Below are positions 9,665 through 48,674 of a stretch of 64,000 nucleotides of DNA, one piece after another; positions within the stretch are counted from its first letter, which is position 1; each line of letters opens with the position of its first letter. The notes under the pieces were generated by a model. The model was not told the origin of the DNA. It ran no database searches and saw only the letters and a program-made list of their open reading frames with translations. Source of the stretch: Conus ventricosus (Eukaryota > Mollusca > Gastropoda > Neogastropoda > Conidae); the NCBI GenBank assembly GCA_018398815.1, contig CM031601.1, positions 36,246,009 to 36,310,008 on the forward strand, written 5' to 3'. The position numbers and the translations under genes are program-made.

Positions 9665-9689
9665 TCTCTTATTACTCCTCCGGCAGCAT

Positions 9690-10414: not shown

Positions 10415-10474
10415 TTTTTTATAATAAAAAAATTTATAATAAACAAATTGTTAAACAACAAATAAAAAAATTAA

Positions 10475-11013: not shown

Positions 11014-11049
11014 CCCCGTTTTTATTAAAATATTTTTTCCCTTTTTTAA

Positions 11050-14369: not shown

Positions 14370-14437
14370 TTTTTAACTCAAAATATTTACGTAAATTAAA
14401 AAAATAAATATATATAAAAGTAAGTAAAACAAGCTTT

Positions 14438-14701
14438 TTATTCTTCGCCCAAGCGTTGCAACACTTCAAGACACGTTAACCTTACAATAACGTCCGCTAA
14501 TTTTTAGCTTTTCTGAATCACTACAGTCAATTTTCTATCACTTTGATTGCTTCGTTAAATAGTTCACTATGATCTTTTATTAATTGTTTCCATCATTCTC
14601 AAACCCAGATCACTAAAAATCAATGTTTAACGCTTTCATTGTCTCTTTAAAAATAGTTCATTACAATTCTTTAAATCAGATGCACTAAGTTCTGCAGCCA
14701 T
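14438..14701 (-). CDS. Polinton small protein 2, copy C
   Basis: The ATG at 14701 (MAAELSASDLKNCNELF) opens an approximately 87-residue acidic helical protein ending LEVLQRLGEE at the TAA at 14438. Two or three frameshifts. Conservation of the frame among the three copies supports a real gene. No family recognised. Confidence 0.55.
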
Positions 14702-14765
14702 TTTTAATCTAAAATAAAAAAAAAAATAATTGTAATTCAACTGTTTTTTATAGTCTTTTTTCTAA

Positions 14766-15066
14766 TCGTAAAACCTAATCTTCATTAAAGCAAATAGTTA
14801 CCCCTGAAGGACAAGTAGAAACGGTCAGATTAACATCTTGAAAGCCATATAATCAACTAAAAAGGCAAACAATTTTATGGCCGGTTGAGGCCAAAAATCT
14901 TGTATTTCACTGATGGCCTCCTTAAACGCTTGTTTGTATATTTATGTGAATAAAAAGATCAGTAATTGATGTTTCAAACCTGCTCCTTTAAACCCTTTCC
15001 TCTGGCCCTTCCAATTTAACGTGTGAAGTATATTAAGTAAGCTTTTTAACTTCTTCGGGCTTCAAT
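14766..15066 (-). CDS. Polinton small protein 1, copy C
   Basis: Starts at 15066 with TTG where copy B has ATG, then KPEEVKKL. The C-terminus reads SEIQDF, a hydrophobic stretch KLFAFLVDYMA, and VNLTVSTCPSGVTICFNED before the stop. About 100 residues with frameshifts. Function unknown; it precedes small protein 2 in all copies. Confidence 0.5.
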
Positions 15067-15114
15067 TTAAAACAAATAAAATTATAAATTAAAAAAATTA
15101 ATTAATCAGTTTTT

Positions 15115-15260
15115 CTCTCCCTTATTCACTCCCACATCTCTCTCCCCATTCACACTCCCACATCTCTGTCTGTCTGTTTCCTTCTTTGTCTGTCTGTCTG
15201 TCTCCACCTCCCCTCCCTCTCTCATTCACACACGCACTCTCTCTCCAACACACACACAAA
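15115..15260. repeat. Pyrimidine-rich simple repeat in the Polinton left part, copy C
   Basis: Runs of TCTCTC and TCTGTCTG with a repeated TCACTCCCACATCTCT phrase; mirror of 34420-34565. Confidence 0.8.
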
Positions 15261-15394
15261 AACAGAATCATTCACACAATTTGATAGGGGAGTGTTTGTG
15301 GGGGAATGTAAATGAGGCTTTTTGTTGTTCGCACTTGAGCGACGTAAATTCGAGACAGCCACTAAAATCACTTATCAGAGTCCTGAATCAATAA

Positions 15395-15993
15395 TCACAA
15401 GATCTCTTCAAAGTTCTCCAGCGGTCCCTCTGAGACAGCCTTAAAGCAGTTGAAGCAAAACGACGAAGCAAAACGACGAAGCAAAACGACGAAGCAGGGG
15501 CAATACGTTGAAGCCACAACAACAAAAAAGTCAATACAGTTGACCCATTTCAGCGCTACAAGCCTATAGCGCGACCTATTTCGATGCTCAACCGCAGCCA
15601 GCGCCTCCTCAGACTGCGGCAGCCACTGCGTGTGGCGGTGAGGGAACTGACTAGTATTATTGATCAGTTCCGCATTTTTACTGGGATTGTTGTGTTCACA
15701 GTCGGGAAAAATTGACGGTGTCCTCTCAACCCAATAGCGTCTGATCTCCTCACTGTATTCAAACATGGTTTTAAGCTCTTTTTTCATGTTTAAGACTTCA
15801 TAAAAAGACAGTCCAACAGTGCTGAATTTGGAAATGTAAAGGAATAACAAACGAAATATCTCTCTCAGGGCTCCGCGCGTAGGAAGGGCAAATTCCAATC
15901 TTTGTTTTCAGCCACTCATTCCACGTTTCACTGTGCATTCCTTTCCCTTGTTCTGCTTCAAAAACTTAAAAGTAGTTTCCAGAACACCTCCAT
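15395..15993 (-). CDS. Unknown protein at the Polinton left end, copy C
   Basis: From ATG 15993 to the stop at 15395, about 199 residues with one frameshift near 15895. The long open part (15898-15395) includes LYISKFSTVGLSFYEVLN, MFEYSEEIRRYWVERTPSIF, SQFPHRHTQWLPQSEEALAA and a hydrophobic FFVVVAS segment. A 13-bp unit (TTCGTCGTTTTGC) repeated three times lies within its C-terminal coding part. No family recognised. It is the first gene inside the terminal repeat, a position where I would expect a captured or regulatory gene. Confidence 0.55.
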
Positions 15994-16153
15994 ATTGCAG
16001 ATTAAAACATCATTTCACGTTTTCGTTGCTTCGTTTCTAAAAGATTTAAACTATATCTTTTGGCCGTCGGCTTTGAGCAACAGCGCGCTATAAACACGTC
16101 CTCACGGGTAGGGCGCTCGCTGAATAATGAGATCTGACTTCCCCGGCCAAAAA

Positions 16154-16161
16154 TGACGTCA
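16154..16161. promoter_or_regulatory. CRE/ATF-type palindrome TGACGTCA, copy C
   Basis: A perfect TGACGTCA with a CCAAT box about 12 bases beyond (ATTGG at 16173-16177), about 160 bases upstream of the left-end ORF. Mirror of 33499-33522. Confidence 0.45.
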
Positions 16162-16397
16162 TACCTCCTGTCAATTGGTTGAGCAGCATCGCGCGATGAT
16201 TAATAATGTAGTATTAATTACAGGCTTGTGTCGCAATGCTGCAGTCCATTGTCGTGACAGTAACGGCCAATTTATCGATTTTGCAGTGTCTATGAACAAA
16301 AGCAGCACATGCAAACTTGTCAAACCAGTTTTGGCTGCATTGCTTGCCCACTTAACGCCGCAGGCAACAATGCATACTAATATTGATTGGGGGCCAG

Positions 16398-16742
16398 AGA
16401 ATGTAAATATGTTTGTTCACGATCACCAAATCTTATCTTGCACGCAAGCCCCCCGTTTTAATGTGCTAATTACGTCAATTTTTAGAGATTTTGGGTGTTA
16501 ATTTTTTGTAAAATAGGTGTTAATTTTGGCCAAAACTGATATGTGATGGACGTGATTTCTATGTGAAAAGGGGGGTTTTCGTGCAAAAATAAGATGGGAT
16601 GAGCTTGAACGAACATATTTTTGTAAAATAGGTGTTAATTTTGGCCAAAACTGATATGTGATGGACGTGATTTCTATGTGAAAAGGGGGGTTTTCGTGCA
16701 AAATAAGATGGGTGAGCTTGAACGAACATATTTACATTCTCT
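16398..16742 (-). repeat. Polinton terminal repeat, copy C (fold-back type)
   Basis: Mirror of 32938-33283. It contains two tandem copies of a unit of about 112 bp (16511-16616, 16617-16728 approximately). Its two edges are inverted relative to each other: GAGAATGTAAATATGTT at one edge and its complement at the other. Confidence 0.8.
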
Positions 16743-32937: not shown

Positions 32938-33283
32938 AGAGAATGTAAATATGTTCGTTCAAGCTCACCCATCTTATTTTGCACGAAAACCCCCTTTTCA
33001 CATAGAAATCACGTCCATCACATATCAGTTTTGGCCAAAATTAACACTATTTTACAAAAAATATGTTCGTTCAAGCTCACCCATCTTATTTTGCACGAAA
33101 ACCCCCCTTTTCACATAGAAATCACGTCCATCACATATCAGTTTTGGCCAAAATTAACACCTATTTTACAAAAAAATTAACACCCCAAAACCTCTAAAAA
33201 TTGACGTAATTAGCACATTAAAACGGGGGCTTGCGTGCAAGATAAGATTTGGTGATCGTGAACAAACATATTTACATTCTCTG
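32938..33283 (+). repeat. Left terminal repeat of Polinton copy B (fold-back type)
   Basis: Two tandem units of about 112 bp (32948-33059 and 33060-33172) each begin TATGTTCGTTCAAGCTCACC. The inner edge carries an inverted, diverged copy of the first roughly 60 bases (ending AACATATTTACATTCTC). The same arrangement with one tandem unit forms the right end. The repeat can therefore fold on itself as well as pair with the opposite end. Confidence 0.8.
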
Positions 33284-33498
33284 GCCCCAATCAATATTAG
33301 TATGCATTGTTGCCTGCGGCGTTAAGTGGGCAAGCAATGCAGCCAAAACTGGTTTGACAAGTTTGCATGTGCTGCTTTTGTTCATAGACACTGCAAAATC
33401 GATAAATGTGGCCGTTACTGTCACGACAATGGACTGCAGCATTGCGACACAAGCCTGTAATTAATACTACATATTAATCATCGCGCGATGCTGCTCAA

Positions 33499-33522
33499 CC
33501 AATTGACAGGAGTATGACGTCA
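33499..33522. promoter_or_regulatory. CCAAT box and CRE palindrome in the Polinton leader
   Basis: CCAAT at 33499-33503 and a perfect TGACGTCA at 33515-33522, about 160 bases before the left-end ORF and conserved in copy C. These are ATF/CREB- and NF-Y-type sites in animals. Use as a promoter is inference. Confidence 0.45.
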
Positions 33523-33682
33523 TTTTTGGCCGGGGAAGTCAGATCTCATTATTCAGCGAGCGCCCTACCCGTGAGGACGTGTTTATAGCGCGCTGTTGCT
33601 CAAAGCCGACCGGCCAAAAGATATAGTTTAAATCTTTTAGAAACGAAGCAACGAAAACGTGAAATGATGTTTAATCTGCAAT

Positions 33683-34281
33683 ATGGAGGTGTTCTGGAAA
33701 CTACTTTTTAAGTTTTTGAAGCAGAACAAGGGAAAGGAAATGCACAGTGAAACGTGGAATGAGTGGCTGAAAAAAGATTGGAATTTGCCCTTCCTACGCG
33801 CGGAGACTGAGAGAGATATTTCGTTTGTTATCTCCATACATTTCCAAATTCAGCACTGTTGGACTGTCTTTTTATGAAGTCTTTAACATGAAAAAGAGCT
33901 TAAAACCATGTTTGAATACAGTGAGGAGATCAGACGCTATTGGGTTGAGAAGACACCGTCAATTTTTCCCGACTGTGAACAACAACAATCCCAGTAAAAA
34001 TGGCGGAACTGATCAATAATACTAGTCAGTTCCCTCACCGCCACACGCAGTGGCTGCCGCAGTCTGAGGAGGCGCTGGCTGCGGTTGAGCATCGAAATAG
34101 GTCGCGCTATAGGCTGTAGCGCTGAAATGGGTCAACTAGTATTGACTTTTTTGTTGTTGTGGCTTCAACGTATTGCTCCTGCTTCGTCGTTTTGCTTCGT
34201 CGTTTTGCTTCGTCGTTTTGCTTCAACTGCTTTAAGGCTGTCTCAGACGACCGCTGAGAGAACTTTGAAGAGATCTTGTGA
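33683..34281 (+). CDS. Unknown protein at the Polinton left end, copy B
   Basis: Starts at ATG 33683 (MEVFWKLLFKFLKQNKGKEM) and, after one or two frameshifts near 33810-33900, ends at TGA 34281. Most of the frame is read better in copy C (15993-15395). Visible features are a basic amphipathic N-terminus, an acidic middle (EYSEEIRRYW), an SQFPHRHTQWLPQSEEAL block and a hydrophobic Cys-containing segment near the end. The coding sequence carries TTCGTCGTTTTGC three times in tandem. No family recognised, and I know no equivalent in standard Polinton gene sets. It could be a lineage-specific accessory gene. Confidence 0.5.
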
Positions 34282-34419
34282 TTATTGATTCAGGACTCTG
34301 ATAAGTGATTTTAGTGGCTGTCTCGAATTTACGTCGCTCAAAGTGCGAACAACAAAAGCCTCATTTACATTCCCCCACAAACACTGCCCTATCTATTGTG
34401 TGAATGATTCTCGTGTGTG

Positions 34420-34565
34420 TGTGTGTTGGAGAGAGAGTGCGTGTGTGAATGAGAGAGGGGAGAGAGGGTGGAGACAGACAGACAGACAAAGAAGGAAACA
34501 GACAGACAGAGATGTGGGAGTGAATGAGGGAGAGAGATGTGGGAGTGAATAAGGGAGAGAGAAAC
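34420..34565. repeat. Purine-rich simple repeat in the Polinton left part, copy B
   Basis: GAGAGA, GACAGACA and two copies of a GAGATGTGGGAGTGAAT phrase. Shared with copies A (1290-1360) and C, so it predates the copies' separation. Confidence 0.8.
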
Positions 34566-34609
34566 TGATTAATTAATTTTTTTAATTTATAATTTTATTC
34601 TGTTTTAAA

Positions 34610-34892
34610 ATGAAGCCCGAAGAAGTTAGAAAGCTTACTAATATACTTCACACGTTAAATTGGAAGGGCCAAAGGAAAGGTTAAGGGAGCAGGTTTGAAA
34701 CATCAATTACTGATCTTTTTATTCACATAAATATACAAACAAGCGTAAGGAGGCCATCAGGGGAAATACAAGATTTTTGCCTCAACCGCCAAAAAATTGT
34801 TTGCCATATTAGTTGATTATATGGCTTCTCAAGATGTAATCTGACCGATTCTACTTGTCCTTCAGGGTAACTATTTGTTTTTAATGAAATAG
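34610..34892 (+). CDS. Polinton small protein 1, copy B
   Basis: Starts at ATG 34610 (MKPEEVRKLTNILHTLNWKG) and ends at TAG 34892 after frameshifts. About 95-105 residues, helical and basic N-terminus, CPSG near the C-terminus. No family recognised; conserved in position and sequence in three copies. Confidence 0.5.
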
Positions 34893-34963
34893 GTTTTTAC
34901 GATTAGAAAAGACTAAAAATAACAGTTGAATTACAATTATTTTTTATTTATTTTAGATTAAAA

Positions 34964-35222
34964 ATGGCTCCCGAACTAGTGCATCTGATTTAAAGAATTG
35001 TAATGACTATTTAACGAACAATGAAAGCGTTAAACATTGATTTTAGTGAATCTTGGTTTGAGAATGATGTAAACAATATAAATAAAAGATCATAGTGAAC
35101 TATTAACCCGAAGCAACAAAGTGATGAAAAATGACTGGTGATTCAGAAAAAGCTAAAATATTAGCGGAAACGTTATTGTAAGGGTTAACGTGTCTTGAAG
35201 TGTTGCAACGCTGGCGAAGAAA
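34964..35222 (+). CDS. Polinton small protein 2, copy B
   Basis: ATG 34964, about 85 residues after frameshift allowance; the TSDLKNCNDYL-like N-terminus and LEVLQRW-like C-terminus match copy C. Function unknown. Precedes PolB by about 70 bases. Confidence 0.5.
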
Positions 35223-35291
35223 AAAAAGCTTGTTTTACTACTTTATATATATTTTATTTTTTTAATTTACGAAAATATTTTGAGTTAAAAA

Positions 35292-38200
35292 ATGAGCCTC
35301 ACAAACGCGTCTGAGTTTGAAAAACTGCCAGCCAGCGCACGGTGAAAGGTAGTGACAAAAAATTAATCAATATGTTTAGCAAGTAACATGACATCATTAA
35401 CCCCACAAATTTTCATGAACGAAAGCACATGCTATCTCAAAAATCCCAAGTCCTTCAGATGGAGCCCCAGTAAAAGTTTGTTGGTCGTTCTGATTGACAA
35501 ATATAACGCCTGATGAAGTAACATGGAAGTCTGGTTTCAACTAAACAGAAAAAGAAGTTTTTAGCTACGCGACTTTAATTCTGACTGGCTGATTACATGC
35601 TTACACAGTTTAACCATGCAAGTGAAGAGGCAAAATTGCGCGGTTCTGGCTGGTCTGAAGGAACATCCTTCAAATTATATTGAAACAAAGTTCTATCCTA
35701 AGTTGGCAATTCTCACCTTCCTCTCCCAAAAGAGTTAGTTTTAAAACGAGCAGTCTTAAACATAAAAAATCCTGACAACATGTTTTTTTAATGTGGTGTG
35801 TTTAGCGCATTTACATCCTGTTATAAAGAACGCAGAAAGAGTTTCCAAATTTATGACCAATACAAAAAAGAACTGAACTTTGATAACATCCCCTTTTCCC
35901 CTGAGTAAGAAAGTATACCCTCAGTTTGAAGAGCAAAACAAACCAATCACGTAAACGATACACATGGTCTGTAGAAGCTGATCTAGTGCCTCAAAGGGGT
36001 TTCTCCCCACGCTCCCACTTTAGGCAACCACTTAACAAACACGTAGACTTGATCCTGTTTGAAGATAGTACAAAGAGTCATTATGTATTAATCAGAACAA
36101 TAACCCAGACTTATGGCCTATACTTTCAAAGAATCATGCTATACAAGGCTTGTAGAAGGTGTTTAGTTAGAATTCCTACAAATAAACAGCTGCTAGCCAT
36201 AGAACTCATTGAAAAAATTTTGTAGACTGTGAAACCAAACTCCTCACACCTAAACCAGGGTCAAAGTTAGTTTTTAAAAATTTACACAAAATGCAGATGA
36301 GTCCGTACGGTTTATGCGATTTTGAATCAATCTTACCGCAGTACTACGGCCCACAACACAAGAACAAAAAACAACCTTTAACCCACCATCAGATCTGTTC
36401 TTATGCTTTATTGTTTTTAGGTCAAAACGCCAACACACACCCCAGATTTACAGAGGCCCCCAACGCACTAGCAATTTTTAGAGCGATGAAACAACTTCGC
36501 AATCACTACTCCAACCAACTAAATCTTTCAGACATTGTTATGACTCCTGAAGACCAAGAACTAGATTCATCTACCCCACTGTTGGATATGCAATAAAGAA
36601 TATTAGGCAACGCAGTAAGAGACCACGATCACATTACTGGAAAGTTCAGATGGGCCGCGCACAGCAATTGAATCTAAACTTAAAGTTGACCCTAAGACAT
36701 GGAAACTGCCTATCTTCTTTCATAACCTACAGGCTACGATTCTCATTTTATCATGCAAGCAGTGACTTCTGAATATAAAGAGGTTTACCTGCATTGCACA
36801 GTCTTCAGAAAAGTAAAATACTTTTACTCTTGCAGTTTGTCCTTTTAATGACTCGCCCAACATCTGATGGCTATTTGGATAAATTAGCGGGATCTCTACA
36901 AGACTTTCCAATCACAAACAATACTTTGACCCATCTTAGTGCGTAAAGGAGTCTATCCTATGAATACATGAACTCGTGGGACAGTGTTTGATGAAGACTC
37001 ACTTCCTCCAAAGGCGCTTTCTTTTCTAGTCTTAGAGGCAAAGACATAAACTGACTCTGACTATAATACGCACAGAAAGCCTGGTAGAATTACACTGTGA
37101 AACAAAGGCGACTACATGATCAATATTTATTGCTGACGTTTTTTTTGGGCAGAACGTCTTTCAGAATTACAGATCTACATGCATGAAACATTACAACTTA
37201 GACTCCTCACATTACATCTCTGCGCCTGGCCTTCTTAGGACGCTTTTTTAAAGTCTACAAACATCAGATTGACTTAATTTCTGATCTACCCACACTTCAG
37301 ATGATTGAAGACGGTCTAAGGGGAGGTATTAGCATGGCCTCACATCATTACTGTAAAGCAATAACAAATTTTTAGACGACTATAAATCCCACTAAACCAT
37401 CCAACTATCTAATGAACTTAGACCCAACAATCTGAAATGGATGGGCCATAGCAACCCGCTTCCACTGAGAAACTTACAATGAAAAAAGACCCTCATAATG
37501 TTAATACTGTGTTAAGTAGTTGTCACAGCTTCCGCCTGAATAATTCAATGGGACTAATTTTAGAAGTAGACTAGAATACCGTATGAACTACACGATCCCC
37601 ACAACGATTACCCCCTAGCCGCAGAAAGATTAAAGATGACCCTATCGAGCCCGCCTAAACTTGTGCCAAAACTTCGACACAAACTAAGCTGACAGCTGCT
37701 CAAGAATCATTGCTTTTGATCAAGAGCCCTTATGAGGCCATACATCAAGAAAATACTGATCTTAGAACCCAAGCCACTGACGCTTCAAAAAAAAGACTTC
37801 TTTAAACTGATGAAAAACAGCTGTTTTGGCAAAACCATGGAGAACGTACACAATCCAAAGAGTTAAATTAGTTACAAAAAAAACCAAGCAATTAAGTTTG
37901 CCTGTAAACCTAACTATCAAAACTTAGAAAGATTTAACGCCAGCCTGGTTGGCTTTAAATAGGAAGAAAAGGGATTTAAAAGTTGACAACCCGGGTGTTA
38001 ATCGCTTAACCGTATTAATTTGGGTCAAGTTATTGATGTTAGAATTTCTGTACGACACTTAAACCGCGGTACCAAGCAAAAAGTCCTTACACAGACACTG
38101 ACTCTTTATTTAACAAAACGTTCCCACAGAAACTTCTTAAATTTAGAAACCGAATGGCTAAAGGAGTTGATGAGGGTAACGCACACACATCCTAAGCCCA

Positions 38201-38529
38201 GCCTTTACTTTCAACGTAAACCCAAAAAAAATTGAAAGTTTAAAGGATGAACTTAATGGGACAGTTTTTAAAGAATATTTGGGGTTGAGGCCAAAGATGT
38301 ATACGTTGCCAGCCAACTCTGTAATGAATAAGGCTAAAGGCATAATAAAGAAGTTGTCAAAAAAAATATAACTCCATAACTACAAGCAGCCCTCTTTGAA
38401 AACAAAGAATTTCATCACACAAATGTAATTTGCGCTCTACTCCCATCAAGTAACACAACTGCTGTTAACAAGAAATCACTAGTCCCTAACAATAACCAAG
38501 AAACTTACGTCAATCCTGAGTTTTCATAG
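35292..38529 (+). CDS. PolB: Protein-primed DNA polymerase B, Polinton copy B
   Basis: Replicates the linear Polinton genome from a protein primer. From ATG 35292 to TAG 38529 is about 1079 codons, the usual family size. In order: N-terminal region, exonuclease I (DFES, near 36320), a zinc/HNH-like insertion (CWIC near 36575-36590 and RDHDH near 36620), exonuclease II (YDSHFIMQ, near 36740), YPYEYMNSWD (36955), GGIS (37323), motif A (near 37405-37450), motif B KLMKNSCFGKTMENV (37800-37850), motif C with YTDTDSL (near 38090), and the thumb-like end ITHNYKQ. Frameshifts number in the teens, mostly at homopolymers, and differ from those in copies A and C. Function in this copy cannot be judged. 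Confidence 0.88.
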
Positions 38530-38576
38530 CGTAGGGCATGGAAACTTAAAGTTTAATTTGACAAATTTGGGCCTGT

Positions 38577-38690
38577 ACTTAACTTAAGAACCTAACAAGA
38601 ATTTAACTTAAGAACTTAACAAAACCTAACAGTACTTAATTTAAAAACCTAACATACTTAAAACTAGAACTTATTTTTTTGTACTTGTAA
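38577..38690. repeat. Short degenerate tandem repeat after PolB, copy B
   Basis: AACTTAAGAACCTAACAAG-like units repeated five or six times; counterpart of 5176-5262. Confidence 0.6.
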
Positions 38691-38779
38691 TTTAAACTGC
38701 ATTTAAAATTTAAAAAAAGTACTTTCTATAACTAACTTAACTTGTATTTTAAACTAGTCAAAAAACAATTCCATAGAAA

Positions 38780-39652
38780 ATGGTCACTACAGGTGGTTGC
38801 GCTTTTTTGCAGAAGGGGGCTCTTCTTCTTTTACTGTGGGGCTTGCGGCTTTGTTGTTAGGTTAGGCTTTAGTATTTTAAATGCAAAAAAACACCCCCAG
38901 CAACAACAGCAGCTCCCAATACATAATGATACTCATCGTTTGATTGTGTTGTTGTTAATTGGTTGTTGGCGGTGGCGATGCGTATTACTATCTAACAATT
39001 TTTGTTTTGCTGTTTGGGTTTTTGCTTTTGCAGTCTGTTCCATTCAGCTAGTTTACGCCCAGCCTCAACACCCCAGGTTTTTTAAGTCTAGTAACTTTAA
39101 CTCACTTCCCGTACATTCGCTTGTGGTACATTTACTTTTTGGCACATTCTGCACCTGCGATTGTCCTGTGGCGTCTCTTCTCCTGATCGCTCATTTTTTT
39201 TATTGCATTAAATTAAAAATGATCAAAATTAATATGATTAAAAGAAAATTAATCCCATGATGAATGGCATAACATAGTCCCAAATTTGTAGTACATGTCA
39301 CATGCAAGAGTTTCTGGGGACTTTTTTAAAAACCCGGGATCTTGTGATAATCTTATTTTAAATCTTCTTCTGAATAAACCCGGGCCCACCTTATTTACAA
39401 ATTTAGCAAAAAACTAATCATTGTCTTGACCCACCGATCTAACCATTTTTGAACCTAGCTGTGCTTCGCCCTAGCGTATTACTTCTCAACGTCTGATGTA
39501 GACAGTTGTTGGATCTGTTCAATACTTAGTTCAACACCTAAATACTGTTTAGTTTTTCCACACGCAGCCAGAGAATATAATCTTTCTTTATGGCAGGGGT
39601 CTACGGAGTAGTCTGCTTGCTCCTCACACTTTAATAGTTCGTCACAATCCAT
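38780..39652 (-). CDS. Polinton accessory protein with DVEKYYARYE motif, copy B
   Basis: From ATG 39652 the frame gives MDCDELLKCEEQADYSVDH, a Cys/His-containing N-terminus, then YLGVELSIEQI, TSDVEKYYARYEAQLG (near 39450) and a C-terminal domain with VRSVGQDND and SPETLACDMYYKFG (near 39300). The E/DxEKYYxRYE...LYYxxG pattern is one I recognise from a widespread Polinton hypothetical protein. Below about 39240 the frame continues with Lys/Gln-rich sequence whose coding status is doubtful. Copy A lacks everything after the RYE block. Convergent with PolB. Confidence 0.6.
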
Positions 39653-39691
39653 TTTTAAAACAATAAAAAATAATATAATACTTTTAAAACC

Positions 39692-39918
39692 ATGAGTTTA
39701 ACGTTGGTTAATTATGCTGTGCCTATCGTTGGCTTTATAGTCTATTCAACCCTTGCAAAATGTTTTTAAGAATAAAACCGCCCAACATGGGAAAGAAAAA
39801 AGATTCGCCAAAACTAGTTGCAACTTTATTTTTAGCTTTAACAACAAAAGATTATCTGATTAAAAAGCACATAGACAGTCTTTCGTATTAAAATTAAATT
39901 TTAATTATTTTTTTAGTT
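39692..39918 (+). CDS. Small Polinton membrane protein 1, copy B
   Basis: ATG 39692, MSLTLVNYAVPIVGFIVYST followed by a second hydrophobic block (KLVATLFLALTTKDY region) with frameshifts. Two probable membrane helices. It resembles the next gene in layout, suggesting duplication. Confidence 0.5.
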
Positions 39919-39925
39919 AATAAAA

Positions 39926-40150
39926 AGATACGAAAAAAAGATATCAATACGATTTACCACTCGCTGTAATTAGCGGCCTTAGTATGGGCTATAGTGTGTT
40001 AGCAAAAAACATGTTCAAAATGAAGCCGCGGATCTAGGAAGGTTAGACTTTGAGGACATTGTTAAGGTTTATAGTTGAAATTTACTGCAGGGATTGCGTC
40101 AAAAGACTTTTCTTGTTACACAGGGGATTATCCCAGAAAATATTAGTTCA
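39926..40150 (+). CDS. Small Polinton membrane protein 2, copy B
   Basis: Counterpart of 5743-5970; here the ATG is changed to ACG in GATACG. SAVISGLSMGYSVLAKNM-like and FKMKP..LGRLDFED regions are visible with frameshifts. Function unknown. Confidence 0.5.
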
Positions 40151-40190
40151 AGAAAGATAATTCATAAGAAAAATATTGATTTATAAAAAG

Positions 40191-40662
40191 ATGGCAGGAG
40201 TATTATGATGGTAGGGGAGCTATTGTTAATCCTTGGCCTTCTCTGGAAGCAGCAAGCCCGATTGGCCCTTTGTGGTCGGCTGGGCTATAAGCAACATTAC
40301 TTATCTTACTCTGGAAGAAATTATATGTTTAGTAAATTGCGGTCCGATGAAGAGAGAGAACGCCCAAAACCCAAGGCAATAGAAGATTTAGCAAAGGCAA
40401 AGACCTTACGAGAAAAGGGAATTGCTCACTTAGACTTTATTAATAAAAGTTAAGAGAACGGGCCATGCAGAGCACACATTTACAGACGTTATGGGGCAAT
40501 AAATGAGATTACTTAGTGACAGGAAAGAAGTTTCTAACAAACACCACCTCCAGAACGTCTGATTTTTAAAGAACCCATCGGGGAAAACAGAAAATAGCAG
40601 AAATTGGTTTTATTTGTGGGTGCTATGGGAGCAATCTATATTCTTTTGCGCAAACAATCTAA
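40191..40662 (+). pseudogene. Polinton helical membrane protein, copy B, with LINE-tail insertion
   Basis: ATG 40191; after about 50 bases it is interrupted by a short LINE-derived insert at 40250-40308, then continues with FSKLRSDEERERP, a charged helix with IAHLDFINK, an FTDV block, a Y-Y region and a C-terminal hydrophobic FVGAMGAIYIL ending at TAA 40662. The homologous gene in copy A is broken about 45 bases further on by a different element. Function unknown. Confidence 0.65.
40250..40308 (+). mobile_element. Very short 5'-truncated I-clade LINE insertion
   Basis: About 59 bases (GATTGGCCCTTTGTGG... GGGCTATAAGCAACAT... CTTATCTTA) match the 3' end of the LINE at 27365-27410 and the tail at 54720-54756. 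They are flanked by a 9-bp duplication CTCTGGAAG (40241-40249 and 40309-40317) and are absent from copy A, so this is a genuine short retrotransposed copy. Confidence 0.7.
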
Positions 40663-40697
40663 AAAACAATTAAAAACAATTAAAAACAGCCCTTCTT

Positions 40698-41680
40698 ATG
40701 GACAAAAACGAAGTACAATACAAGTACAAAATATTTTAAATTCTCCTAAAGGTTATTGGAAAGGAAAGACTGCTATTGAAAAACTGAGTAAAGCCCTAGA
40801 GTGTCGAATCAGATGCGAAAGACGGGCTTTCAAAACAGCAATTTGGCAAATATATCTGCCTGCCCCAAAAGAATAATAAGACCTAGATTTTTTAAACTCA
40901 GTTCCAATGACAACCCACCAAAGGACTTGTTTGAAACTTCCACAGGACAAGTTAGAAAAAAAAAGTTTAAGTATTGCCTACAGTTGTTGACATGGCTTCA
41001 AGATACAAAGACCTAAACCTTTAACGGATAAAAGCTCAACCTGTGGCGTGGCTTTACAACAAATATACATGCGAGGCCCATTAAAGTATCCAGTTGATCC
41101 AGTTGATGATGGAAAAGAGTTTAAAGGCTCTGTAAACCAGCTGTTTTTAAAACGTCATGTACATTTAAAGGGAAGGATCCCAGGCAACCATGGGATCACA
41201 AGTTTCATTAGAAACTTTAATAAAAAATTTTAGCTAAACGCCTGTTTAACCTATCAATATAAACAGAGAAATTATGGATAGAGAACCAACACAGAAGGGT
41301 TAGGAGATTGCCTGCAGTCTTACGTGCCATGAACAATGAAGAATTTAAAGCAACAGGACTGAAGCCAGGAACGCAATCAAATTAAAAAAAATTAGCATTA
41401 CTAAAAGATGTGCAGACTCAAAAACTCCTTGCCGTTTGGACTAAAAGTAAGATACTTGTATCTCCTGGGGGGCGGAGGGTGATGTTAGAATTAGAGCCAC
41501 AGATCCTAAAAGGGAGCGTAGATGTATATGAAGTTAAAAGAATTATGAAAACAGACCCTCCCGTAATTATTTAAGAGAAACTCTCTCTTCTAGGGGTGCT
41601 ACTACGTCTAAAAGGCCTCCCCTAAAAGATCGTTTGTTCGTGAAGAGCTGCAATTTGTCCCGCCAAACACAGTGAGTTAA
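40698..41680 (+). CDS. INT: Polinton retroviral-type integrase, copy B
   Basis: Starts at ATG 40698 (MDKNEVQYKYKIF) and ends at TAA 41680. It shows the GYWKGKTAIEKLSKA N-terminal block, YLPAPK, the rve core with DLFE-like first Asp region (near 40925), VDDGKEFKGSVNQLF (41105-41145) with the second Asp, the Glu region near 41205, RERNTE-like and YEVKRI-like C-terminal blocks, and a basic RPPLKDRLF-like tail. More frameshifts than copy A. Role as in copy A. Confidence 0.82.
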
Positions 41681-41796
41681 CAAAAAAAATAGTATTTTTT
41701 TTTTTTAAACTTATTTATTTGTTAAACTTTTTTTTTTTGCTCTTTTTTTGGGTTTAACTATCATTTTTTGTTTTTTCAATTTTCTGTTTAATTGCA

Positions 41797-42337
41797 TCAG
41801 TGCCCTACCTGTCGTGAATAAACGTCTTTCTCCACCCCTTTTTGAAGTTCAATTTTTCTGTCTTCTATAATCATCAACCGTCAGCCATAAGCTTCTGAAA
41901 TTCTTCGTCCGTAATGTTTTTCATCCTGTAATGATTTGCTTATTCTTAATCTTAATGAGCAAAGTTTGCTGATGCTAGGGGCAACAATAGCAGTGTGGGT
42001 TTGTAATTTTGAGTTAATTTTTTAAAAAAAAGCACTTACAACCATAGACATGGCGCCTAACCCTAACCCGAGACCTCCTAATGCTAAAGAGGCTGGCGCC
42101 ACCAACCCCAGTAAACTAAAACAGCAATGCCAGACCCAGCACTTACGCTAGCTACAGCTGATGAGCCAGTAATACATAAGAAAGAGTATTTAAAGCTTTA
42201 GCATATTTCTTTCTAGTAACTCTATCTTATCCAAGTCGCTTTCTATTTCCTTTTTAAGTTCAGTTATTTGCTTTTAAAACCCAAACTGTTGAACCCCATT
42301 TTAAAATAAATTAATTTTTAAAATTAATCTTATACAT
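41797..42337 (-). CDS. Polinton accessory protein with glycine-rich hydrophobic segment, copy B
   Basis: Counterpart of 9129-9664. The hydrophobic Ala/Gly segment lies near 42050-42150 and the helical DEEF-containing C-terminus near 41880-41920. Frameshifted. Convergent with integrase; probably membrane-associated, role unknown. Confidence 0.55.
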
Positions 42338-42344
42338 ATCTTCT

Positions 42345-43172
42345 TAGTAAACCTTCTGGCAGCACTTCATCAACAGATAAAACGCAATAAAAATCAACAT
42401 ACTTAATGAAATAAAGTCAAGTACTGTTTTGTTTGTCTTTGTCAACCATTTAAAATACCTTGTCGATGATGCAAGGGTGTTTTATTTCATTTTCCGTTTT
42501 TAGTAATAACAATAACGAGCTTAAAAGGGGCATCCAAGTTTCACCATTTTTTTTGTATGCCTCTAATAAACGCATGGGTTCTGGCAAACTAGTAATCGCC
42601 CTCCCTCGTATAAATAAATAAGCAAAAATCATCGTCATTGCCTAGGAAGTGATTCTAGTTTGGGGTAAATTCTAAGCCTACTGTCACCCCCCACTTCACT
42701 AAGGACTTCTTCTCTGTAAACACATAATCAGAACCTCGCTTAGTTATTTCAATCTGCTTTTTTCTGTTGTGTTCCTGGACAAGGGTAACAAGAATGGCCC
42801 TTCATTTAAAAAGGCTTTCTAAAATTGTTGTTCTTATCATAGTATTACATTGGGGCTTCGAAATTCAAAAATTTAAATTCCAGTCAATTTCAGGAAGCAA
42901 CGCCCAAGCATTTTCACTCTTTATGAAGTTTGTATTCACGTTGCCAAAAACGTTTGCTCTTAAATTTCTTAAACTCTTCTAGGGCCCGGGTGCTGCTGCC
43001 GTTTTTTGTCTTCAATTTCGTTTGTTGTAAACCCCGCATCTGTATATTCAAACCATAAACAAATTTTCCCGGCACTCCTATTAGATCAAACCAGTTGTGT
43101 CTGCAGGTCTTTTAGCTCTACTGCAGTGCATTTAGGAGCTAGCTCCACTTTTGATTCTGGCCCTCGAGACAT
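42345..43172 (-). CDS. Unassigned minus-strand Polinton gene, copy B
   Basis: From ATG 43172 (MSRGPESKVELAPKCTAVEL) the frame continues, after frameshifts, with ICLWFEYTDAGFTT, a basic KKFKSKRFWQREY block, RGSDYVFTEKKSLVKWGVTV, GNDDDFCLFIYEGGRLLVCQ and a Lys-rich end. It may be one protein of about 270 residues or two. It lies between the ATPase and the Gly-rich membrane protein, all on the minus strand. I do not recognise a family; no adenain catalytic pattern (His, Asp/Glu, Cys) can be made out. A minor capsid or matrix role is possible but unsupported. Confidence 0.45.
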
Positions 43173-43232
43173 TCTTTTTATAATATTGAAATTATATAAA
43201 CAAATTGTTATAGAAACAATCAATAAAACAAT

Positions 43233-43842
43233 CTACAATAAACAAACGTATTGAACTGGGGGGTCAGTCCGAAAACATAGCTTAGCGTGTTAATTTTTCT
43301 AAAATGCTCCTTTTATTTTTTTAGCTCAACTTTGTCCCTTATTATATAATTTTCACTTAAACATTCTTCAAAAATATCTTTGCCTTAGTGTAAAAAAAAT
43401 ACCCCCTGATTTAACGCGATCTAAAGTCTTTAAGACTGCAAAGTATTTTTGAGTTAAGAAACCACACAGAAACTAAGGCGTGGCGGCCGCTTAAAGGCAG
43501 CTTTGACAGAGCTTTTCTTTTTTTAACAATGTCTCGTTCAGCTAACAGTCACAATAATAAACAGCGTTTCAGTTCCCTCAAATAGTCTATAGTAATGTTC
43601 TAAACAAATCGCTCATTTGGGCGCTAGGATCAACTGGAAATATAATTACGTCTGTCCAAATAAACTTCCTTTCTTTGTAAACTTGTTTGTGCTAATTGGT
43701 TGTGCAGAATATAACAATGTCCTCGTAATGAAACCTGTATATTGTTTGTAACAAATCAAGTACGAAGACAGTTTTCCCACACCCATAACCCGCAGATAAG
43801 AGAACAGTGCGGGTCTTTAGGAAGAAACTTCAAGCTATCCAT
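43233..43842 (-). CDS. ATP: Polinton genome-packaging ATPase, copy B
   Basis: An FtsK/HerA-type ATPase thought to drive DNA into capsids. From ATG 43842, the Walker A region reads LLSAGYGCGKTVFVLDLL (43755-43805), followed by HYEDIVIFC, then YKERKFIWTDVIIFPVDPS (near 43640-43680), and a C-terminal region with CLSENYII and a TDPPVQYV end at the stop at 43233. About 200 codons, slightly shorter than usual (around 220-230). Frameshifts fall in the Walker B region. It lies between MCP and the unassigned gene on the same strand, starting about 30 bases after the MCP stop, probably co-transcribed. Confidence 0.8.
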
Positions 43843-43872
43843 CTGTTTTTTTAGAAATTTTCCCTTTTGCAT

Positions 43873-45142
43873 TTAATAAACCACATCTTTTAAACCTGTT
43901 TTCTTCAATGTTTAACTGAGCATCACAAACCATAAAAATGTGCATTTTTATTGGAAACCCTTTTCCCTCTGCTTTCTTGTGAATATTTATTTTTTTACCA
44001 TCTTGCCCTATCCTTTCTCCACTTCCAAACAACCTGTTGTCAAATGTAGATCAAAATCCAGCCACAGTCCCCTATTTGTTTATTAAATAGTCTTCGAGTC
44101 TTACATCATAAAGGGGAAGTTTTTTACATAGCGATCAACTGCAGATCCCTTGCCTACCTCCAGCGAACAACTTCTTATTTCATCAAAGGTTTGGTGAGGT
44201 AAAAGTCCGCGCCCTGAAAAACAACTGATCAGACTTGCCATTTTATTGCACAGTCGACCTTCTCAATTTTTGGATTATAAAACGCTTCTGATTCCTCTGA
44301 AAAGGAGTTGTTCCTTCAGTAAACAAAACCAAAATTCCTTTTAAAGACTTTAGAGACTGATTTAAATGTAGTTCCAGAGAGTGTCTCGCTTTTTTTTATT
44401 TTCTGTAATGGCGTGTATAGCTCTTTCATAATAAATAACTTGTTTTTTTTTTAACTGGGTTAAGATTGTTCTAGCCAGTTTGGGGGGTTTGTAACAACAT
44501 CAAACTCAAGGGGAAATGTCCGCTGTGTATTAGCTTCAGGGTCTTCAGACAGAACAACAGAATCGCTAAGATTAAATGCAGTTCAAAGAAAGCTTTTCTT
44601 TTTGTGCACCTGGGAATATGGCATAATTGTCTTTAACAGTTCAAAATCTAGAGGGATGCAGAATCTGTGCCAAATGCTTTTGCTACTGCCTCATCTTAAC
44701 ATCGCCCTTTGCATCCCCGCTTTAAGCCTGTTTCTTGAGAAACCCTTTGGACTTTGTATTCCCTGATAAACTTTTTCTTTTCTTTCTTTTTTAGGCAGCC
44801 ATAAATCAGAATAGAGGGCAAAAATGTCTGCCTCCGTTTAGTACAAAGACCGCTCTGCCCCCCAGTTTGATTGCCATATGTTTAACGATTGCCCTGCCTA
44901 AAAATTTGCAACAACAGTAGCATTAGGGGCAAACGATTTAATTATCTATTTGGAATGCTAGTTTAGCAGTGCTGGCATTATAACATCGCCACGCCAAGAT
45001 CAGGGAACTTGACTGTTAAATCTTGTCCAGGCTCAACTGTTGATGGAGTATTTACACTAGTAACGTCCTGCCTTATACCTCTTACGCCATTGGGGCTCCT
45101 TCTCTTTTTTGTATGTGAACGAGGTCACAACCTATAGTTCAT
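43873..45142 (-). CDS. MCP: Polinton major capsid protein (double jelly-roll), copy B
   Basis: The capsid shell protein. From ATG 45142 to the TAA at 43873, about 420 codons. Visible blocks: STVEPGQDLTVKFPDLGV (45010-45060), an AIVKHMAIKLGGRAVF-like block (near 44850-44900), ADIFALYSDLWLPKKER (44800-44840), FxIPLDFELLKDNY-like region (44630-44670), FEFDVVTNPQTGQN-like region (44470-44510), SLKGILVLF (near 44320-44350) and the C-terminal IFMVCDAQLNIEENRFK (43880-43945). These match the Polinton MCP pattern (IVK.....G, F..Y.DLW, IPLDFE, EIVTNP, SLKGIL, DAQLNI). Frameshifts are frequent, but the last roughly 50 residues are open. Transcribed divergently from the acidic coiled-coil gene, 35 bases apart. 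Confidence 0.85.
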
Positions 45143-45177
45143 TTTTTATAAAACAAAAAAGAATATAAATAAAAAAT

Positions 45178-46416
45178 ATGGATGAAGATTTTGACGCGAT
45201 TGGATCCGTTGAAGAAGAAGATGAAGAACAGTCCCCCATTGCAAGAAGACTTAGAAGAAGCAGCAGGCCCATTGAGTAAAAGGCCTAAAGGAGAAGGGTC
45301 TTCACTCCTTAAAGCTCGTCAAGAACAGAAGGAGTAGGTTCTTCACTCCCAAAGCCCGTAAAGAACTATTGCGAGAAAGAATTTAATCATTCTATAAAAG
45401 CAAGGACGAGAGCACCGGGAGTGCTTGATCCAAACGATTTTTAGGAAGATGGTGGGCATTTTTATATAAGAACTGTGCAGGAGACCGCGAAAAGTTACTT
45501 CAACGCAAAACCCAAACAAGTTTTTTAAAACTAAGCAAAAATTAGGCGAAAAATCCCTATTCTAAGGCAGAACACTTAAACCTTTAGAGCTTAGAGCCAA
45601 GCCGTTAGTCTTTTACAGAACTTTGGCCCAAAAGTTGCCAACACAATCTTAAATACAAAAAATTCCTCTTCAAGAATTAAATCAAACAGCAGATGAGCAA
45701 TAGCAGAAATTGAAACGAGTTTTAATGAGGAGACACAATTAAAAACAAATGACGATTCTCCATTTCCATGCGTGAAATCCTGGGGCTTAAGAGGCTTTAC
45801 GAACAATAAGGGGTGAACAACAAACAATTTGGCAAAACTTGGTGAGCTAGATGCAGAAATAGAAGAAGAAAAAAATAAACCGCCGAAAGCAGAATGATAA
45901 CAATTTAGGGGAAGAAGAAAAGCTAAATACAGCAGAAAATACAAGATTTAATGATAGAAAGGGCAGCTAGGTTAGAAGTGCTGTCACAACAGAACGCAGC
46001 TAGCATCACAAACAAGCAGAATTAGAGAAACCATAAACAGAACACTTTAAAGAAAATACTACGCTAGCGAAAGAATAAGAACTCTGTTCAGGGAACAGGG
46101 GGTTACAAAGTTATATATTAACAGCTGGTTTTGGGGCTACACTACACTCGTTTATGCTTTTAACCGGCAGTGCACCAACAAAGGGGCCAGTAGCTCCTCC
46201 AACGCCTCAGCCTGTAAAAGTTGGATTAGAAAACAATTGCATCATCTAGCAAACTTATTAAAGAAGTTAGCCGCTAAAGCGCTTTATGCTCTGCCTGGCA
46301 TAATAGGCAGTGTTGTTTAGTTGGTTTTTGTCTACTATAGGCAAAGTTGCTGGTTATAGGCTGACCCCTCTGTGGACGTTAGGAGTGCTAGCTGCTGGAT
46401 AATTTTTATGAAATAA
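45178..46416 (+). CDS. Acidic coiled-coil protein with C-terminal membrane helices (Polinton accessory)
   Basis: ATG 45178 opens MDEDFDAIGSVEEEDEEQ followed by a basic RRLRRSSRP stretch, a helical centre with EIETSFNEETQL and GEEEKLNTAENTRF (45700-45960), then a C-terminal part: TLVYAFNR, a Pro-rich linker, LLKKLAAKALYALPGIIGSV and a hydrophobic tail up to TAA 46416. The KKxAxxALPGIIGSIVxxxF type of ending is common in one Polinton accessory protein. A structural or membrane-active role is inference. Frameshifts near 45270, 45520, 45670, 45900 and 46320. Confidence 0.6.
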
Positions 46417-46420
46417 AGTA

Positions 46421-46621
46421 ATGGGTAATCCAGTAAAATTAAAAACAACAAAAAGGGCTGTCTTTCGCTAGTATGACGCAGTGTAAGGTACATTAACAGG
46501 TGGAGTGCTTTCTGGGCTGCTTTTTGGCTGTGGGGGCTTTCTGGGTGGGTTTATAACTGGATCGCTTTCTTCAGGGATAGGTACTTTCTTTAAAATGGAT
46601 GGGGCGGGCCTTTTGTTTTAA
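46421..46621 (+). CDS. Small Gly-rich membrane protein (Polinton accessory)
   Basis: ATG 46421, MGNPVKLKTTKRAVFR, then after one or two frameshifts a Gly-rich hydrophobic stretch (TGGVLSGLLFGCGGFLGGF, then GSLSSGIGTFF), ending at TAA 46621. About 65 residues. Follows the coiled-coil gene by 4 bases, so probably one transcript. No family recognised. Confidence 0.5.
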
Positions 46622-47613
46622 GTAAATTTAAATTTTTGCCCTAAGTCTTTGGTCGTCTCCAGCTATGAGGATTTTATTGTTATAATTTTTGTAAATTTTG
46701 CCAATCTGTAGTCAAGGTCAGAGGGCAGCATGTATAATCCACACCCACAACAAAGTCAACCCTTGACCTAGCATGTGCAAGAACGCTGAAAACCCCTTTT
46801 TATGCGGCAGGCAAATCAACAGCAGAGTAATAGCATCTTTTAAATTGGCTAGAAATTGTTTTCTGGCATCAAGCCTGTAGATTGATCTACTATGCTAGAC
46901 TTGGTCTGTGCTTGTGCTCCTAAAAGACACCAAAAGTATTCCTTATGGAGTCATTAAGCCTTTGCACGCCTGGGATAGTTAGACCTTTTCTTTAACTAAG
47001 ATAAATGTTGTCCAGCATTGGGATGTTTTTGTTTCTAAAGGACCCACATCGAACTTTTTTGTTTGGTTGAAAAGAGGTGTGGCCAAGGCCAGTAGTCAAA
47101 ATTATATTCTCTAACGATTTACCCCAACAAATACAATGTGCCTAACCCAGATTGCGGTCTAACTTTTGTTTAAAAATCAGTTTAAGGTTTAATGTTAAAT
47201 TCGTTGCAAATCTTTCATATGCATTATTGTCCATTGGGCTGTTAAATGGATAAAACGCGTTGTCGTTAGGGAGGGGCACTTTTAGTTCAGTTAGTATTCG
47301 TCTGTACTGGTAAAAAACATGAAAGTTAATACTGACCTTACCAAGAGATTAGGGTGGTTTAAAATGTTTTCAATATGAAACACCGCAGCCATAGTTGCGC
47401 AGTAAACGGCAAAATTAAACTGATTCTGAAAAAAAGCACTCTGTCGCTCTTTATTGGCGGATTTAAATATTTAGTTAGCGGGTTACAAGTCTAACCCGAA
47501 AGCCGTATGATCCATCTACTGCAATGGTTAAATTGATGAAGTCTAAAGGTTTTGGGGTTATAAAACGCTCCACATTGTAAATAACATGTTCAAAAATATT
47601 GAAAAGCTACCAT
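46619..47613 (-). CDS. Unassigned large minus-strand ORF in Polinton right part
   Basis: From ATG 47613 the frame reads EHVIYNVERFITPKPLDFIN, LTIAVDGSYGFRVRLVT, then after frameshifts LTELKVPLPNDNAFYPFNSP, KKVRCGSFRNKNIPMLDNIY, IPGVQRLNDSIR and a terminal block with PLTLTTDWQNLQKL. About 330 codons. Beta-rich appearance and position opposite the MCP cluster would allow a minor capsid (penton-like) role, but no diagnostic motif is visible. It converges on the Gly-rich membrane gene. Confidence 0.45.
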
Positions 47614-47663
47614 TTTTAAATTAGTTTTTTAAAAAGGGGGTTTTTAAAATAGTTTTAAAAAAG

Positions 47664-48419
47664 ATGTACATCTATATAACCAAGCAAAACGAGCGTGTGT
47701 TTTTAACACATCCAATTGAAAATAGGCGCGGCGATTGTAGGGTTGCCCTTAGAAAAATTTGGGGTTTAAAATAAAATGGATTAACATATCTGAAAAAGAT
47801 AAGAATAACTGGGTGGATAATTAAGGAATGGGCAAGGCAATCTATTAAAAATTTAAAAATACCCGATGGTTACTACAACTTTTTTTCTTTAAGAGAAGTA
47901 TTTAGCAGTTTTAACATTAAGTTAAAAATTAATGAGGGAAATCTTATAGTTACTATAAATTTTCCGAAAATTTAAAGAAAGGGAGTACGTTTTCCTAGAA
48001 GCCTTGCCGAATTTTAGGCTTTTATGACAGTGGCGAAACAAATCATATTTTAAAATACATATGTACTTAAAAGGAGGCTTTATGAGTAAAGTAGGCAGTA
48101 GACCATCTATTTTCTCGTAAACCCAATTTTGATGTCCATTTACAACAGTTAAAAACAGATACTAATTTTTTTAATGGCTAACCATCTACTGTTCTACAAG
48201 CATTGCCAAACCAACTAAAAGTAAGGTTTTTGCGATTATCAGTACAAAAGGTTTGGCAAGACAGTGAATTTAAAGAATTAATTGAGGTTTCTTTAAATTC
48301 ATTGGATGTAAAAATAGTTAATCAAGAAAGGAAAGCCAGTTGTTTGTTCTGATTTATTAATGGTGCTGGAAGTAGAAAACATGTTAGAAAGTAAGAAGAA
48401 CTCGTACCGCGGGCGTTAA
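47664..48419 (+). CDS. Unassigned ORF at the Polinton right end
   Basis: ATG 47664 (MYIYITKQNERVFLTHPIEN) to TAA 48419. Readable blocks: WINISEKDKNNWVDN, KIPDGYYNFFSLREVFSSFN, LIVTINFP, RFPRSLAEF..FM, then SVNPNFDVHLQQL-like and LPNQLKVRFLRLSVQKVWQD. The DGYY...L...(beta)...RSLAEILGF layout recalls a viral structural protein with a beta-sandwich, but this is only an impression. Ends about 17 bases before the right terminal repeat. Six or so frameshifts. Confidence 0.45.
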
Positions 48420-48436
48420 TTTTTATGTCCCTGGGG

Positions 48437-48674
48437 GAGAATGAAAATATTTGGTTCACGATCACCAAATCTTATCTAGCACGCAAGCCCCCATTTAAAG
48501 TACTGAATACGTTCGATTTTTGGCGGTTTTTGCGTGTTAATTTTTTTTTTAAAATAGGTGTTAATTTTTGGGCCAAAACTGACATTTGATGGACGTGAAA
48601 TTTTTATGTGAAAAGGGGGTTTTTCCGTGCAAAATAAGATGGGTGACTTGAATGAACATAATTTTAACATTCCT
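48437..48674 (-). repeat. Right terminal repeat of Polinton copy B
   Basis: Inverse of the left repeat: GTTCACGATCACCAAATCTT at the inner edge, AAAAGGGGG-TTTTCCGTGCAAAATAAG then GAACATA...ACATTCCT at the outer edge. It has one unit of about 112 bp where the left end has two, hence 238 against 346 bases. Confidence 0.8.

Follow-up and report, generated by a model that had tools for sequence, protein, structure and literature searches.

The closest described systems are the Polintons, or Mavericks, of metazoans (Polintoviricetes). According to the excerpted text of PMC8097293, intact vertebrate Mavericks measure 12.7-24.6 kb and carry terminal inverted repeats (TIRs) of 46-1447 bp, and in most vertebrate Mavericks PolB is grouped with the ATPase, while a second module contains the integrase and capsid genes. 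The window (the whole 64-kb stretch of DNA analysed) holds a 15,737-bp unit at 32938-48674 whose ends are inverted repeats 345 and 238 bp long. This unit has the PolB and RVE integrase families, the TIRs and the 15.7-kb size in common with metazoan Polintons. Unlike those elements, it has palindromic TIRs, and no intact gene was found in it, every gene being in short pieces. Its arrangement also differs from that of most vertebrate Mavericks, in that PolB and integrase lie on one strand and the putative ATPase on the opposite one.

Because PolB, an RVE integrase and long TIRs occur together on one 15.7-kb unit, a size within the 15-20 kb or so of Polintons, the element can be identified as a Polinton, as had been claimed earlier, and it is a further Polinton of an already known type. 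The reading that we favor, at a probability of about 0.8, is an endogenous Polinton (Maverick) of an animal, probably a marine invertebrate, seen through a poor consensus and in misassembled surroundings, with part of its breaks being assembly errors and part probably real decay. By analogy with known Polintons, the linear DNA would be copied from its terminal repeats by a protein-primed PolB, inserted by the RVE integrase and packaged with the ATPase and capsid proteins. Protein priming of this PolB is suggested by its family; packaging and a capsid are presumed from the same analogy.

Layout of the window

The window consists of three contigs (A, B and C) joined by N gaps. The unit lies in contig C, and parts of it recur in the other two contigs. 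The features discussed below are as follows.

1296..12017, + strand: second element copy, in contig A (copy A), matching 34498-44924 of contig C
12051..12150: gap of 100 N between contigs A and B
12153..16742, - strand: left part of the element in its contig B copy, with the same flank as in contig C
24236..25235: gap of 1000 N between contigs B and C, at the centre of an inverted duplication
32938..33282, + strand: left TIR, 345 bp, beginning AGAGAATG; imperfect palindrome
32947-33175: 113-bp unit within the left TIR, tandemly doubled
35639..38335, + strand: PolB remains (DNA_pol_B_2 type) from tblastn and HMM, spread over three frames and containing stops
39482..39697, - strand: piece of an ORF that lies between PolB and integrase; 30 aa in its middle are 97% identical to copy A
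about 40187..41677, + strand: remains of an RVE (retroviral-type) integrase; the start, 40187, is a piece boundary
41808..42318, - strand: coiled-coil-like pieces, common to copy A
43695..43829, - strand: P-loop piece of 45 aa, putative packaging ATPase (weak)
43838..45124, - strand: candidate MCP region, proposed from position and size and unconfirmed by profile tests
48437..48674, - strand: right TIR, 238 bp, ending CATTCCT; palindrome weaker than in the left TIR

The two TIRs align at 87%, both over 33057-33281 versus 48665-48437 (E 1.4e-68) and in an outer alignment of 32941-33064 versus 48672-48540 (E 2e-34), which bears out the extent and ends first proposed for the unit. A 30-base TIR pattern, allowing at most three mismatches, has four matches in the 64-kb window, every one inside a TIR, and none in 100 shuffles. 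The flanks, AAAAAG on the left and AAAAGC on the right, were examined for a 6-bp target site duplication; five bases agree, in A-rich sequence.

The segment 12153-24094 is an inverted copy of 25601-37487 at 95.6% identity. Copy A may start in a left TIR of its own, as suggested by a TIR-like match at 11-68 (E 1.5e-4). The preliminary description of this DNA mentions neither the N gaps nor the near-identical inverted copy nor the second element copy.

Evidence for individual genes

All 120 PolB relatives listed (of 7986) match the window by tblastn, with matches in the element copy spanning 35639-38335; those named among the 120 come from Pecten maximus (two), Mizuhopecten yessoensis, Elysia crispata and Dendronephthya gigantea. 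The best HMM pieces have E 8.7e-11 in the contig C element and 1e-22 in contig B. For the integrase, all 120 relatives listed (of 151) likewise match the window, at 40718-41662 within the element, HMM pieces reach E 4.8e-14 and 3.5e-13, and the region 40337-41677 matches copy A, whose integrase is also found by Pfam rve (E 2.4e-11). Neither PolB nor integrase matches any of the phage records searched.

The putative ATPase piece, a candidate for the FtsK-type packaging ATPase of Polintons, matches the profiles AAA_19 at E 0.0024 and Pox_A32 at E 0.018, in each case short of the profile's cut-off. Several searches bear on capsid proteins. The uncultivated viral contig L002 (17.4 kb) carries an ORF that we take to be its MCP; within the element, this putative MCP ORF has no match that exceeds noise. 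When 120 of its 607 relatives were fetched, tblastn gave a best E of 0.087 in the window (contig B) and 0.32 in the element, an HMM built from the same set gave E 17 for the best match wholly inside the element, and hhalign of one piece gave 0.9% probability; these relatives are perhaps too distant for such a test, and the element consensus is poor. ORFs of L002 and L003, presumably minor capsid (penton) proteins, have no match in the window at E up to 1. An adenovirus-type cysteine protease was not found by Pfam among 133 pieces, in a scan that also missed PolB and rve.

The comparison with L002 and L003 involved 19 of their 23 listed ORFs, the omitted ones being two long fibre-like and two overlapping or antisense short ORFs. 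L002 encodes PolB and integrase, as the element does, but its genes are open. Its own proteins match rve (E 6.4e-8) and, for the ATPase, Pox_A32 (E 5.1e-11); against the window, its PolB reaches E 6.8e-27 (contig B), its integrase E 6.3e-8 (copy A) and its ATPase E 0.02, the last at 43820-43698 of the element. In L001, a contig of 5.1 kb that is catalogued as an Oligoflexia bacterium MAG, integrase and PolB lie side by side, again as in the element, but there the two genes are convergent, whereas in the window they point in the same direction. The L001 integrase matches copy A at E 1.3e-46 and the element at 2.6e-18, and its PolB matches contig B at E 3.1e-39. No end-to-end TIR was found in the parts of L001-L003 examined, L002 and L003 being incomplete.

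Scans of viral_contigs with the integrase piece, the integrase alignment, a PolB piece from contig B, the L001 PolB and an MCP-candidate piece returned no relative, and a scan with the L002 ATPase returned only its own contig. A degenerate pattern retrieved four contigs, none of which matches five query proteins (two integrases and three PolB) at E 1e-3; a single match among them, at E 0.008 from one element piece, is read as chance. PHROGs yielded three weak families with one piece each, PDB sequence searches gave no match, and Rfam and tRNA scans of the 64-kb window were empty.

The preliminary description had presented a near-complete Polinton with a full replication-integration-capsid gene set, in which PolB, integrase, packaging ATPase and MCP were all recognisable, accompanied by about 13 accessory ORFs. 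Two of these four genes, PolB and integrase, are recovered as remains by tblastn and by the profile searches that had been suggested as a check; the evidence for the ATPase is weak, and the searches did not confirm the MCP. With every gene moreover in short pieces, near-completeness is not demonstrated, and the full gene set was rejected on account of the weak ATPase and of the MCP and protease that were not found. Only seven ORFs of at least 80 aa lie wholly inside it and one more crosses its left edge, the longest having 172 aa.

Apparent gene breaks and a faulty assembly

The element consensus contains an excess of homopolymers and of bases equal to a neighbor, the latter numbering 56 in contig C versus 16 in contig A (p 2e-6) and 46 in contig C versus 15 in contig B (p 9e-5). 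This error signature extends beyond the element: the homopolymer excess of 1.31 in the contig B part of the element is close to the 1.24 of the B flank, and in the B/C flank test contig B was the worse (12 vs 2, p 0.013). Copy A and contig C agree at 88-93% of aligned bases over 40341-42140 and at 72-83% beyond; in copy A coordinates, agreement is about 69-72% over 1296-5256 and 93% over 5266-6069. True divergence of the low-identity parts of copy A was considered and rejected, given that bases there copy a neighbor by 133 to 44 and 103 to 42. Since the stretch is badly assembled, real breakage of the element's genes is not readable from its sequence, and neither mutation nor harmless error can be assumed for the frameshifts.

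One alternative is that the element is a dead fossil, with frameshifts and stops that are host mutations in an accurate sequence. In contigs B and C alike, PolB is distributed over three frames and interrupted by stops, and 96% of vertebrate Maverick loci are eroded, according to the excerpted text of PMC8097293, both of which fit such a fossil. It is nevertheless unlikely: read as alleles, B and C show 43 substitutions and 30 indels per kb within the element as opposed to 14 and 16 in the flank, 103 of the 133 element indels are single-base, and neither the one-sided neighbor-copy bias nor the homopolymer excess is expected from mutation.

Under the favored reading of a Polinton in a faulty assembly, contig A holds another copy of the element, and contig B probably represents the alternative haplotype of contig C's left part, to which it is attached head to head. 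The segment 12153-24094 would then be a haplotig, and the contig B copy at 12153..16742 would probably be the same insertion on the other haplotype. A real chromosomal inverted duplication, with no haplotype misjoin, would also place its arms head to head, as they are in the scaffold, but this is distinctly unlikely. A 1000-N gap occupies the centre, and the arm is not continued, because contig B ends within the element and the adjoining contig A is a different copy in the opposite orientation.

We give little credence to an element that is intact in the living animal, all of its breaks being consensus errors. The error signature would agree with this, as would the copy A integrase, which has a 128-residue stretch without a stop that is 75% identical to one database relative. 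Yet the contig C integrase is 44% identical to the same relative, with five stops over 198 positions, and PolB shows breaks in B as well as in C. It had been suggested that polishing might remove the frameshifts and leave an intact copy; the error signature lends partial support to the former, and the latter is unsupported because contig B, in which this locus was assembled a second time, has PolB split over three frames too. The proposed use of the element as a reference for the host lineage fails on sequence quality.

Two unrelated foldback or MITE elements in opposite orientation around non-element DNA are scarcely credible and were rejected: each TIR does have its own inverted ends, but PolB and integrase lie between the two, TIR-like sequence also starts copy A, and the left unit, bordered by AAAAAG on one side and GGCCCC on the other, has different sequence on its two sides and thus no target duplication of its own.

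Palindromic ends and what the locus means

With a fold z of -8.0, the left TIR unit forms an imperfect palindrome, which is present in the left TIR of both contigs B and C. In the weaker right TIR copy, 8 of the 67 scored palindrome pairs are broken, with no compensatory changes. The TIRs may be hairpin-capable ends (arm, loop, inverted arm) that would give a protein-primed element a second, hairpin-based route to copy or protect its ends, an idea that we regard as unlikely. Folding back would then be possible at the termini of the linear genome, and copying of such a hairpin could have produced the 113-bp duplication of arm plus loop. Internal imperfect palindromes also occur in L002 and L003, the best having E 1.4e-9 and 1.7e-13 with the low-complexity filter off; their presence makes it harder to regard palindromes as peculiar to the element's TIR.

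The locus serves mainly as a caution. The breakage of a Polinton is confounded here by an unremoved haplotype and by a consensus in which homopolymers are lengthened and neighboring bases copied; counting or dating 'dead' Polintons in assemblies of this kind would give biased results. In addition, the palindromic TIR offers a small lead on the possible copying of Polinton ends.

Terminal repeats and assembly structure

In the preliminary description, the 15.7-kb Polinton unit at 32938-48674 (the element) was bounded by inverted terminal repeats, and such repeats were indeed recovered at both ends, with 33057-33281 matching 48665-48437 (87%, E 1.4e-68) and a second inverted pairing between 32941-33064 and 48672-48540 (87%, E 2e-34). 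The left terminal inverted repeat (TIR) includes a tandem doubling of a 113-bp unit and so reaches 345 bp, and the right TIR is 238 bp. Each outer end begins with AG, reading inwards, and the flanks (AAAAAG on the left, AAAAGC on the right) agree at five bases in A-rich sequence, which makes them a possible target duplication at most. The window is assembled from the following pieces.

1-12050: contig A, with a second copy of the element (copy A, 1296-12017)
gap of 100 N between contigs A and B
12151-24235: contig B
gap of 1000 N between contigs B and C
25236-64000: contig C, with the element

The stretch 12153-24094 of contig B repeats 25601-37487 of contig C in inverted orientation (95.6% over 12.1 kb) and takes in the left end of the element and its flank. 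Outside the element, these two stretches diverge by 14 substitutions and 16 indels per kb; inside it, the figures are 43 and 30, and 103 of the 133 indels there involve a single base. Contig B stops within the element and the adjoining contig A carries the other copy in the opposite orientation; therefore, the arm is not continued. The simplest reading of the B/C arrangement is a head-to-head haplotig misjoin.

In each TIR, the outer end recurs at the inner end as an inverted copy. When folded as DNA, the left unit (33048-33282) forms a single long hairpin of -37.3 kcal/mol (z -8.0), which none of 200 shuffles equaled (mean -15.6, sd 2.7). Pairing in the right TIR is alike, with a weak fold (z -1.9; 8 of 200 shuffles as good). 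Self-comparison recovered the arms in contig B over 84 bp (80%, E 1e-16) and at the right end over only 44 bp (75%, E 0.012). All 68 left-stem pairs are kept in contig B. In the right TIR, 67 of them are scorable: 59 are kept, 8 are broken and none is kept via a change, and thus the hairpin shows no sign of selection. Two comparison contigs, L003 and the 17.4-kb uncultivated viral contig L002, also contain imperfect palindromes in their interior. No title or abstract opening found by full-text search, which was supplemented by passages of PMC8268682 and PMC6431247, describes such TIRs, a scope that leaves their absence from print unproven.

Gene remains

A full set of PolB, integrase, packaging ATPase and MCP had been proposed; remains of the first two stand, the ATPase is represented by a weak piece, and no significant MCP match falls within the element. 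No intact gene was found there. The element entirely contains seven ORFs of 80 aa or longer, and another spans its left edge. The longest, of 172 aa, is within 38654-39444, a stretch of about 790 bp between PolB and integrase that is present in contig C and not in copy A, through either an insertion in contig C or a deletion in copy A.

The integrase was first secured in copy A (8111-8530; Pfam rve E 2.4e-11), and an HMM search matched single integrase pieces of the element down to E 4.8e-14. With the copy A query, 151 database proteins were retrieved (E up to 0.001), and all of the best 120 match the window: in the element at 40718-41662 and in copy A at 7676-9001. Integrase alignment also led to the 5.1-kb contig L001, in which integrase and PolB adjoin. 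Its middle PolB ORF has 7986 relatives; each of the best 120 matches the window, over 35639-38335 in the element, and those named among them are from Pecten maximus (two), Mizuhopecten yessoensis, Elysia crispata and Dendronephthya gigantea (five in all). Few as they are, these names suggest that the host may be a marine invertebrate.

L001 (1-5112), with its Polinton integrase and PolB, is filed as an Oligoflexia bacterium MAG and probably represents animal DNA that was assigned to a bacterial genome during binning. Bacterial names among the listed integrase matches, Candidatus Thiodiazotropha (two) and Cohaesibacter (one), seem to reflect a similar error.

Two regions bear on the packaging and capsid genes.

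43695-43829, minus strand: putative ATPase piece with a P-loop and weak Pfam matches
43838-45124, minus strand: candidate MCP region, from position and size only

The ATPase piece has weak matches, under the cut-offs, to AAA_19 at E 0.0024 and to Pox_A32 at E 0.018, and the L002 ATPase matches the same site at E 0.02. For MCP, we started from an L002 ORF taken to be MCP; it has 607 relatives, of which the best 120 served as queries. The best tblastn match was E 0.087 in the window (contig B) and E 0.32 within the element, and the best HMM match entirely within the element was E 17. By hhalign, one piece of 43838-45124 aligns near the C-terminal end of L002-type MCP with 0.9% probability. No protease turned up among 133 pieces (42 aa or longer) scanned with Pfam, a scan that also missed PolB and rve and so says little.

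Other elements lie nearby. The integrase gene of copy A carries an insertion of about 1.6 kb (6098-7673) with the 8-base repeat GGTCTGAT on both sides. Its ends are inverted (42 bp, 86%, E 9e-8), and 6924-7175 holds a THAP-domain piece just under the cut-off (Pfam E 1.3e-4). The insertion resembles a THAP-bearing DNA transposon, and contig C is without it at 40341-40348. The left flank holds a reverse transcriptase piece of a LINE-like element (31111-31458; Pfam RVT_1 E 1.1e-12), with a near-identical inverted counterpart in contig B, and the right flank an endonuclease piece of another retroelement (52017-52523; Pfam Exo_endo_phos_2 E 9.8e-7).

Probable consensus errors and decay

Aligned bases of copy A and contig C agree well over A 5266-6069 (93%) and 40341-42140 (88-93%), and less so in the poor parts, past 42140 (72-83%) and over A 1296-5256 (about 69-72%). 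The transition/transversion ratio is 1.57 over A 5266-6069 and 0.72-0.97 in A/C stretches that take in the poor parts. At isolated differing bases, we recorded which sequence's base alone matches an adjacent base. This was mostly contig C against A 7674-9480 (56 to 16; p 2e-6), A 5266-6069 (13 to 3; p 0.02) and B 12153-15300 (46 to 15; p 9e-5). In the poor parts of A it was mostly A, both against C (133 to 44, p 1e-11; 103 to 42, p 4e-7) and against B (111 to 33; p 5e-11). In the B/C flank it was B (12 to 2; p 0.013). For the two TIRs compared with each other, the counts (3 and 5) are too few to tell. Because the counts differ by stretch, including the flank, the defect varies by stretch and extends outside the element. 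A mutation process favoring the neighbor's base in only one member of a pair is hard to conceive, and under-corrected long-read consensus could be the source.

Measured against shuffled 500-base blocks, homopolymer content has a median ratio of 1.51 in the element and of 1.18, 1.16 and 1.36 in three other contig C stretches (p 4e-5; 30 vs 32 blocks), with the contig C ends and a patch at 54000-56900 left out. In contig B, the element's part (1.31) is close to the flank (1.24). The excluded patch has a median of 2.28, like the contig A ends (2.1-2.3), and is probably another poorly corrected stretch. PolB is broken into three frames with stops in both contig B and contig C, and therefore real decay of the element is likely as well.

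Relation to known Polintons and Mavericks

Intact vertebrate Mavericks, in the parts of PMC8097293 consulted, are 12.7-24.6 kb long; their TIRs span 46-1447 bp and their target duplications are of 6 bp. One module contains PolB and ATPase and the other integrase and the capsid genes, and erosion affects 96% of the loci detected. In contrast, the element has PolB and integrase on one strand and the ATPase piece on the opposite strand, an order that would be a variant if the one weak ATPase assignment holds. According to passages of the respective papers, PolB and RVE integrase occur in all Polintons, and ATPase and protease in most (PMC4642659); the MCP gene, whole or split, is kept in more than 80% of 72 surveyed Polintons (PMC4028283); Mavericks are present in every mollusc genome analyzed by one study (PMC10294476); and they are listed at 1.69% and 1.93% in the two columns of a hard clam repeat table (PMC8905726). 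Overall, the element fits the Polinton/Maverick kind.
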